Of a DNA stretch of 64,000 nt, positions 52,676 through 53,590 are shown in pieces. Under the pieces are notes generated by a model that was not told the DNA's origin, made no database searches, and worked only from the letters and a program-made list of their open reading frames with translations. This DNA comes from Rhizomicrobium sp. (GTDB lineage: Bacteria > Pseudomonadota > Alphaproteobacteria > Micropepsales > Micropepsaceae): positions 3,239,418-3,303,417 of the forward strand of contig JBBCGL010000001.1 of NCBI GenBank assembly GCA_037200385.1, in the 5' to 3' direction. How positions within the stretch are numbered: position 1 is the stretch's first letter; each line of letters starts with the position of its first letter. The position numbers were made by a program, and so were the translations under genes.

Positions 52676-53503
52676 TCAGCGGCGCACAAAGCGAAGGAAG
52701 GCCGGCGGGCCGTGCAATTCCTTGGCTTCATAGCGGGTCGGCGGCCAGTCGGCCGGGCGGGTGTGCCAGTCGGACGGACCGGTCGCGGTCCAGCGGAAGG
52801 CGGGATGTGCCGCCAGCCGCTCCAGCGCGTAGGCGAGGTAGCCGGCGTCGTCGCTTGCGAAGCGCAGCTCCGCGCCGGGTTTGAGGATGCGGGCGAGCCT
52901 GTCGAGCATCTCCATCTGCAGAAAGCGGCGCTTGTGATGCCGCGTCTTGGGCCAGGGATCGGGGAACAGCAGGAAGAAGCGGCCGATGCTGGCATCGGGC
53001 AGCGCATCGATGATGTCGCGCGCGTCGTTCTCATAGAGACGGATGTTGGGGAGCGGGTGTTCCGCCAGCCGCGACAGGAGCTTGGCGGTGCCGGATTCGT
53101 AAGGCTCCGCGCCGAGCAGGCCGATATCCGGATGTTGCTCCGCCTGCCAATGCAGATGCTCGCCGCCGCCATAACCGACTTCGAGCCAGACGTCGGCGAC
53201 CGTGAAATCACCTCCCCCTTGTGGGGAAGTCGAAAAATCGCACAGCGGAGCGACGCGATTTTTCGGGTGGGGGGCGGTGCCGGACGGAGCGAGCGGCCCC
53301 CCACCCGAAACGCTTCGCGCTTCGACCTCCCCACAAGGGGGAGGTGAAAAGTAGACGCGCGGATCGCTACCAGACTGAAGCCGCAGCGCCAGCTGCGGCA
53401 GCAGCGTTTCGCGCAGGTCCTGCTGATACGCCGAAAGCCTCGGCCCTTTGCGGCGGCCGTAGAGCTGGCCGCGCCGGCGCTCCTGGTGTTCGGTGTCGGT
53501 CAT
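52676..53503 (-). CDS. trmB: tRNA (guanine-46-N7)-methyltransferase TrmB carrying an inserted palindromic element
   Basis: TrmB methylates G46 in the tRNA variable loop with SAM. The core is complete: VWLEVGYGGGEHLHWQAEQHP, LYENDARDIIDALPDASI, FLLFPDPWPKTRHHKRRF and the C-terminal TRYEAKELHGPP. At 275 residues it is about 45 longer than usual TrmB. The excess is residues 53-99, encoded by a 140-bp palindromic repeat (53208-53347) whose translation (CGEVEARSVSGGGPLAP..) has no TrmB character. The frame stays open through it. ATG 53503 directly follows AAGG with no spacer; the upstream sequence is a second palindromic element. Confidence 0.9.
   Translation of the reverse strand: MTDTEHQERRRGQLYGRRKGPRLSAYQQDLRETLLPQLALRLQSGSDPRVYFSPPPCGEVEARSVSGGGPLAPSGTAPHPKNRVAPLCDFSTSPQGGGDFTVADVWLEVGYGGGEHLHWQAEQHPDIGLLGAEPYESGTAKLLSRLAEHPLPNIRLYENDARDIIDALPDASIGRFFLLFPDPWPKTRHHKRRFLQMEMLDRLARILKPGAELRFASDDAGYLAYALERLAAHPAFRWTATGPSDWHTRPADWPPTRYEAKELHGPPAFLRFVRR
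53208..53347. repeat. 140-bp palindromic element inside trmB
   Basis: The left arm TCACCTCCCCCTTGTGGGG (then AAGTCGAA, 53208-53234) and the right arm (53321-53347) are inverted repeats matching at 26 of 27 positions. A second inner pair is TCGGGTGGGGGGC / GCCCCCCACCCGA. In the trmB frame it encodes residues 53-99 without a stop. Related GC-rich elements are normally intergenic. Confidence 0.9.
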
Positions 53504-53504
53504 C

Positions 53505-53590
53505 CTTCGAGGGCCGCTACGCGGCCACCTCAGCATGACGCATTCCGGCTCGCGTCATGCTGAGGTGCTCCGCGAAGCGGAGCCTCGAAG
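53505..53590. repeat. 86-bp palindromic element between metK and trmB
   Basis: Outer arms CTTCGAGG (53505-53512) and CCTCGAAG (53583-53590) plus a perfect 15-bp inner stem CACCTCAGCATGACG (53526-53540) / CGTCATGCTGAGGTG (53553-53567). It begins 1 bp from the trmB start codon, so it supplies the trmB leader, and ends 9 bp from the metK stop, where it may end metK transcription. Confidence 0.88.

Follow-up and report, generated by a model that had tools for sequence, protein, structure and literature searches.

The trmB gene of a Rhizomicrobium genome carries a 140-bp palindromic element in frame, directly after a conserved pair of Tyr-Phe codons. This palindrome is one copy of a multi-copy repeat family, and we consider it probable that the versions found at the same site in related genomes are several to many independent insertions. 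The gain and tolerance of a mobile-palindrome segment had already been proposed in a first-pass annotation of the locus, and it is now supported by close relatives both with and without the insert; recurrent targeting of the site goes beyond what that annotation saw.

A palindromic element lies in frame within trmB

The window, that is the whole stretch of 64,000 nucleotides that was analyzed, contains the following features:

52676..53503, minus strand: trmB, tRNA (guanosine(46)-N7)-methyltransferase, 275-residue form (open reading frame with profile and structure matches)
53348..53353, minus strand: conserved Tyr-Phe codons (TAC TTT), with the element at their 3' edge
53208..53347, minus strand: palindromic element of 140 bp, in frame in trmB, encoding about residues 53-99 (S-PPPCGEVEARSVSGGG...DFSTSPQGGG-D)
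53321..53347, minus strand: outer arm, 5' in gene sense, containing hairpin 1 (CCTCCCCCTTGTGGGGAGG)
53307..53323, minus strand: hairpin 2 (GAAGCGC-GAA-GCGTTTC, stem with one G-T pair), which differs strongly among the TrmB inserts of different species
53296..53310, no strand assigned: inner inverted repeat, other arm of the central stem
53261..53275, no strand assigned: inner inverted repeat, one arm of the central stem
53232..53264, no strand assigned: hairpin 4 (GAAAAATCGC ... GCGATTTTTC), a module also present in other copies in the genome
53208..53234, minus strand: outer arm, 3' in gene sense, 26/27 complementary

The outer arms pair at 26 of their 27 nucleotides (96%) and the inner arms at all 15 (15/15, 100%). 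The modules follow each other in the order hairpin 1 (CCTCCCC..GGGGAGG), hairpin 2, central stem with a variable loop, hairpin 4 and hairpin 5, which mirrors hairpin 1, and the element ends in TCACC...GGTGA. Folded as RNA of the coding strand, it reaches -104.3 kcal/mol against a mean of -58.4 for shuffled sequences (z -12.3), and none of 200 shuffles was as stable. The element shares terminal inverted repeats, short length and multiple copies with MITEs, and an Rfam scan of the window returned no match to any family. The 27-bp inverted ends and the inner pair described at first pass were thus recovered, as was the open frame, since the trmB ORF (52676-53536, minus strand) runs through the whole element. 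The earlier figure of about 47 added residues at positions 53-99 holds for the 275-residue protein (P0001); the ORF has an alternative start at 53536 that yields a 286-residue form, in which the insert occupies residues 64-110. The net gain is about 46 residues, the distance from the GRRK motif to the core being 88 residues as compared to 40-43 in 141 of 144 insert-free relatives. Ahead of the insert, Phe 52 is invariant and Tyr 51 nearly so among 61 TrmBs.

A second, different palindrome (CACCTCAGCATGACGC ... GCGTCATGCTGAGGTG, arms 16/16) lies at 53526-53567, where the trmB ORF begins. It overlaps the start codon that gives the 286-residue form, the upstream one of the two, and precedes a gene that, by eye, resembles metK.

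The host protein has intact TrmB motifs, as first reported. The Pfam domain Methyltransf_4 (PF02390) matches residues 116-272 with 124.7 bits and includes the SAM-binding and catalytic motifs, solved TrmB structures are retrieved by sequence search of the PDB, and the best solved match to the AlphaFold2 model is E. coli TrmB (3dxz). Names among the relatives of the protein include Rhizomicrobium sp. and many Alphaproteobacteria. The score against the NCBIfam equivalog TIGR00091 (103.8 bits) falls below the curated cut-off of 112.65, and the likely reason is the insert. The TIGR00091 match begins at residue 114, past the insert, and the best profile and PDB stretches likewise begin at residue 114 or later, with the exception of NF002421 (25-249). 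Despite the score below the cut-off, the remaining evidence all points to TrmB. Inserts of this kind may lower the score of a conserved enzyme below its cut-offs, and automatic annotation may overlook such TrmBs. Residues 55-113 also gave weak PDB matches to designed beta-trefoils (E about 4e-4, none passing as a single stretch), which were taken as chance effects of composition.

Since palindromes can misassemble and the TIGR00091 score is low, we considered whether the insert is an artefact of assembly or gene finding, or trmB a pseudogene. This is very improbable: the genome is a single contig, the same arrangement recurs in 10 other genomes and in dozens of metagenome proteins, and the TrmB core is intact. 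A search of the genome for a second TrmB found none, its two further matches overlapping copies of the repeat elsewhere.

The repeat family and its other host genes

Searching the 5.0-Mb single-contig genome with the trmB copy by blastn gave 54 hits in 36 places, trmB included; many of them are part-elements, and the count is a lower bound. The arm-hairpin pattern occurs 49 times, as compared to 0 for a reversed control pattern. Codon usage on both flanks assigned two of the 36 places to reading frames. One is trmB and the other an SDR oxidoreductase gene (G000:C1:200494-201511), where the copy is in frame and the extra segment is absent from six and partly aligned in one of the seven relatives aligned out of nine fetched. 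The claim that the repeat is otherwise intergenic therefore stands for 34 of the at least 36 places and fails for the SDR gene. The codon-usage screen is rough and its in-gene counts are lower bounds: applied to 51 loci it flagged two and missed the known TrmB insert of genome G035 (L232, 5' flank -0.2). One locus that it flagged, L206, was a coordinate artefact at a contig edge.

We also searched the insert segment alone against 5.8 billion proteins, with a length window that hides other hosts. Seven of the 10 scored candidates matched, namely five TrmBs (the window's own included), a Mur ligase and a hypothetical protein. In the Mur ligase (P0007, 500 residues) the same palindrome-coded segment occupies residues 265-306 in frame, where the middle-domain match (115-274) ends and ahead of the C-terminal domain (352-484). 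CtaA of G035 was weakened as a clean insertion by relatives in which the corresponding loop is variable and similarly long; a replacement of the loop by the element is possible. This COX15/CtaA loop has element-like residues in G035 (L241) and another repeat-like segment in G011 (L259), and is possibly a second recurrent acceptor loop.

The window insert has closer matches elsewhere than among the full-length copies of its own genome: the best of the latter share 73-76% identity with it, as compared to 81% for the best copy in G082 and 80% in G035. At G000:C1:2976380-2976933 two part-elements lie about 410 bp apart, and they may bound a longer, composite element that has an interior between them.

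The same site is occupied patchily across the order

To describe occupancy of the site we used 96 genomes of the order from seven genera, with the window's own genome as G000. TrmB was matched in 90 of them, and the junction was readable in 89 (G110 is cut). Element-derived inserts are present at 11 of the 89 junctions, all in one frame and all with lengths that are multiples of three. Seven are full (G000, G028, G035, G080, G034, G082, G087) and four short (G022, G002, G097, G098). They begin directly after the Tyr-Phe codons in nine of the 11 genomes; in G034 and G087 the start is shifted downstream by 3 and 9 nt, respectively. A further 76 junctions have no insert, and two have inserts of other kinds, a different palindrome in G036 and a proline-rich segment in G065. 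The palindrome-coded insert of G036 (QTSPLREAQKGEG..., L031) occupies the same loop in a genome devoid of the arm hairpins of the family, and unrelated repeats may therefore use the TrmB loop too.

When 120 TrmB proteins were ranked by their core only, seven had full inserts, eight short ones and 103 none, while two were unreadable. For some proteins counted as short, P0054 and P0055, an origin from the element is not clear. A list of 120 proteins ranked by whole-protein similarity holds many more insert-bearers and is biased toward them because the query itself bears the insert, so we took rates from the core-only ranking and the genomes. An insert-free form in close relatives, which the first-pass annotation had proposed to look for, was found in P0012, the nearest protein by core (90% core identity), although others nearly as close, such as P0008 (87%), carry an insert. 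Rather than an ancient conserved segment, relatives show a site that is filled patchily and with differing subtypes.

Arm hairpins occur in 44 genomes of the order. All 11 insert-bearing genomes have at least nine arm hairpins, the insert's own counted, as do 26 of the 89 readable genomes overall, the other 63 having fewer (P-value 2e-7, Fisher test, with a threshold of nine arms chosen post hoc and relatedness ignored). We rejected the possibility that the single frame is imposed by a single open phase of the element. Among genomic copies the three phases are open with similar frequency (33, 37 and 28 of 68 strand-copies, from 34 full copies; 5, 7 and 10 of 14 in the window's own genome alone), yet the TrmB inserts use one.

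Repeated insertion or one old insertion

The alternative that competes most directly with repeated insertion is that the ancestor of the genus received a single insertion, which was kept or deleted lineage by lineage and whose inner hairpins were overwritten through gene conversion by repeat copies elsewhere, so that it now looks young and subtype-matched. The identical frame and nearly identical nucleotide in 11 of 11 genomes are what it would leave, and the short remnants (eight of 120 proteins in the core-only ranking, some of uncertain derivation) suggest that deletion happens. We nevertheless judge it unlikely. In a tree of 69 genome TrmBs, built with the insert left out, the insert label needs 10 changes, at least six of which are forced by well-supported branches, and an origin of all insert-bearers in one clade is rejected (P-value 1.6e-38, AU test). 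Insert-bearing proteins and insert-free sisters are joined under well-supported forks in G028/G029, G035/G091 and G097/G089+G090, and G028 (with insert) and G029 (without) are identical at 157 of 172 core residues. A tree of 251 proteins, built after removal of duplicate cores, of fragments that could not be read and of rows with fewer than 150 core residues, needs 26 changes, or eight once branches with SH-aLRT under 95 are collapsed. These trees rest on at most 209 columns of one protein, and G036 and G065, whose inserts are of other kinds, were counted as having no insert.

The changes, 10 or 26, mix gains and losses, and in any given case a loss is possible. On the 69-protein tree the insert label is no more clustered than when shuffled (189 of 500 shuffles gave as low a value). 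Repeated gain is compatible with this, and so is frequent loss. Some of the inserts were probably inherited, within the clade of G034, G082, G087 and G095 and within that of P0003, P0002, G035, P0005 and P0116. If species exchanged the 5' part of trmB, the insert would be scattered likewise and repeated insertion mimicked. Two further observations speak against the single old insertion. The insert-free junctions are tight in length, with the 40-43 residues between GRRK and the core given above, and this extends to lineages without any arm hairpin in their genomes. In addition, the offsets of the inserts from the Tyr-Phe codons vary (0, 3 and 9 nt).

Inserts differ in subtype, integrity and modules

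In two cases the insert is of a subtype that typifies its own genome. The loop of the G022 insert (CATCGTGG) occurs in 17 of 22 rows from G022 and in none from other genomes, among the matches listed. The G082 insert has CCTCTCC arms, of which the G082 genome holds 39, two being the insert itself; elsewhere there is one in G000 and none in G034, G035, G080, G087, G095 and G097, while G028 has 22 of a longer-loop form. G082 is also rich in CCTCCCC arms (132 arms of both kinds together).

All seven full inserts fold as strong hairpins from differing sequences (z -5.8 to -13.8). Among the short ones the fold is partly kept in G002 (z -2.1) and G097 (z -3.2), and no hairpin is left in G022 (z -0.7) and G098 (z -0.6). 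The outer stems of the full inserts are uneven, pairing at 26/27, 9/9, 15/17, 17/17, 22/23, 25/26 and 23/26 positions; that of G028 is intact for nine pairs only and therefore broken early. Between G000 and G028, 30 of 86 four-fold sites differ, while the outer stem of the window insert keeps 26 of 27 pairs, and we counted this, together with the strong folds of the full inserts, as a sign of youth.

Within one clade, some TrmB inserts share their flanks and differ in hairpin 2 (P0040 and P0063; P0036, P0064 and P0039), as a single old insertion with overwritten hairpins would also predict. Their sequences suggest that inserted copies may keep swapping hairpin-2 modules with other copies of the repeat. 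Given such module exchange, the matching of subtypes could also stem from conversion.

The added residues are predicted to form a disordered loop

In an AlphaFold2 model that draws on 61 sequences and reaches a mean pLDDT of 82.8, residues 53-103 contain neither helix nor strand. Confidence drops from block means of 95-97 at residues 21-50 to 72 (51-60) and 45-55 (61-100), returns to 96 at residues 101-110 and is 90 or higher in most later blocks; residues 1-20 and 181-190 are low as well. The suggestion that the insert forms a disordered loop agrees with this model, in which most of it is low-confidence coil. The prediction is that the approximately 46 added residues link the N-terminal helix region to the SAM-binding core as a disordered loop and leave the fold of the enzyme unchanged. 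Insert-free relatives have only few variable residues at the junction.

The hairpin or the added peptide might instead be kept for a function, such as slowing trmB translation or serving as a tRNA-binding tail. Strong hairpins in seven of seven full inserts of quite different sequence would fit such a role, and tRNA binding is described to involve the N-terminal extension of E. coli TrmB in the relevant passages of PMC10130221. We regard a retained function as quite improbable, however, as 76 of 89 junctions do without any insert, some short remnants (those of G022 and G098) have lost the hairpin, and the peptide is highly variable in sequence and predicted to be mostly disordered.

Possible target preference and mobility

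At the ends of the repeats, the base at position -1 is C in 0 of 26 cases in G000 and 0 of 52 in G082, but in 8 of 14 in G035, and the trmB site of G028 also has C there. These counts weakly suggest a target preference. By eye, no target-site duplication was evident in the flanks of the element.

We favor the following course of events under repeated insertion. An AT-leaning insertion preference of the element would meet the conserved, AT-rich Tyr-Phe codons, and the next two to four residues, a variable and tolerant loop, would allow in-frame insertions to survive. The trmB site may thus be a hot spot because the AT-rich codons suit the target preference and a variable loop follows. Inserts would later shrink by in-frame deletion, as the short remnants suggest, and may sometimes swap hairpin modules with other copies. 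A bolder form of this proposal, which we offer tentatively and think has less than an even chance, is that trmB is a homing-like landing site. The target preference would make one codon boundary of a universal tRNA-modification gene a recurrent dock, occupied in one frame in 11 of 26 genomes with a readable junction and at least nine arms, and the docked copies would still exchange modules with the rest of the genome. If true, a bacterial mobile palindrome returns to one coding site and lives there as a translated loop.

Membership of the REP/RAYT systems is recognized by a Y1 transposase in the genome together with a GTAG or CGTC foot. The trmB family departs from this: its full elements are about 130-150 bp long and end in TCACC...GGTGA, and a search of the window's genome for Y1_Tnp (PF01797) gave no match, so we rejected a RAYT/Y1 transposase as the mover in that genome. 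PF01797 is present in three of 13 genomes searched (G002, G080 and G082), all among the nine insert-bearers in that set, and because all three hold TrmB inserts a role of a Y1 transposase is possible in some lineages. The two kinds of repeat are alike in being small palindromes in high copy number, those of REP/RAYT being tagged with GTAG or CGTC (PMC3733652).

Relation to known palindromic repeats

In-frame insertion of palindromes has been described in Rickettsia. The palindromic elements of Ogata and Claverie (RPEs) are multi-copy repeats of about 150 bp that add in-frame fused peptides to unrelated protein genes, with nearly half of the copies in genes, according to the sections of PMC10969869 that deal with them. 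As described there, RPEs resemble the trmB element in being multi-copy, open in frame and inserted into protein genes. They differ in the host group and in the share of copies in genes, judged to be two of 36 in the trmB family. Our family likewise has in-frame palindromes in genes of unrelated function (TrmB, the SDR oxidoreductase and the Mur ligase P0007; less clearly the CtaA loop). The trmB element thus appears to work like an RPE, and we do not file it as one, the likeness being one of behavior. The recurrent occupation of a single site, proposed for the trmB element, has no counterpart in what those sections of PMC10969869 say on RPEs.

Outside Rickettsia, the enterobacterial repeats RU-1 (ERIC), RU-2 and RU-3 (Delihas 2007) are MITE-like and fused into ORFs (PMC2759123, in the portion concerned with such fusions). 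By their description they are a different repeat from the trmB element, and that portion of PMC2759123 makes no mention of repeated insertion at the same site, as proposed for the trmB element. Among Alphaproteobacteria, Br-REP1 and Br-REP2 of Bradyrhizobium and Rhodopseudomonas are palindromic repeats with many intergenic copies, Br-REP1 consisting of three palindromes (the account in PMC5082802, in the part that introduces them). They resemble the trmB family in host group, palindromic nature and many intergenic copies, and differ from it in the printed consensus and in being described, in that part, from intergenic regions and 3'-UTRs. Among the titles and abstract openings searched in the open-licence literature, none dealt with this element, with such TrmB inserts or with repeated insertion at the same site. 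In-frame palindromic insertion is already known from Rickettsia and enterobacteria; its recurrence at a single site appears to be new within the literature searched.

The idea that palindromic elements read in frame supply proteins with new segments has been discussed chiefly for Rickettsia. In trmB, the gene of a housekeeping enzyme, they form a natural replicate series, with what appear to be many separate insertions of related hairpins, empty sister sites, fresh full inserts and shrunken remnants. In such a series one can measure directly where selfish DNA prefers to insert in a protein, how it is tolerated and how it decays.
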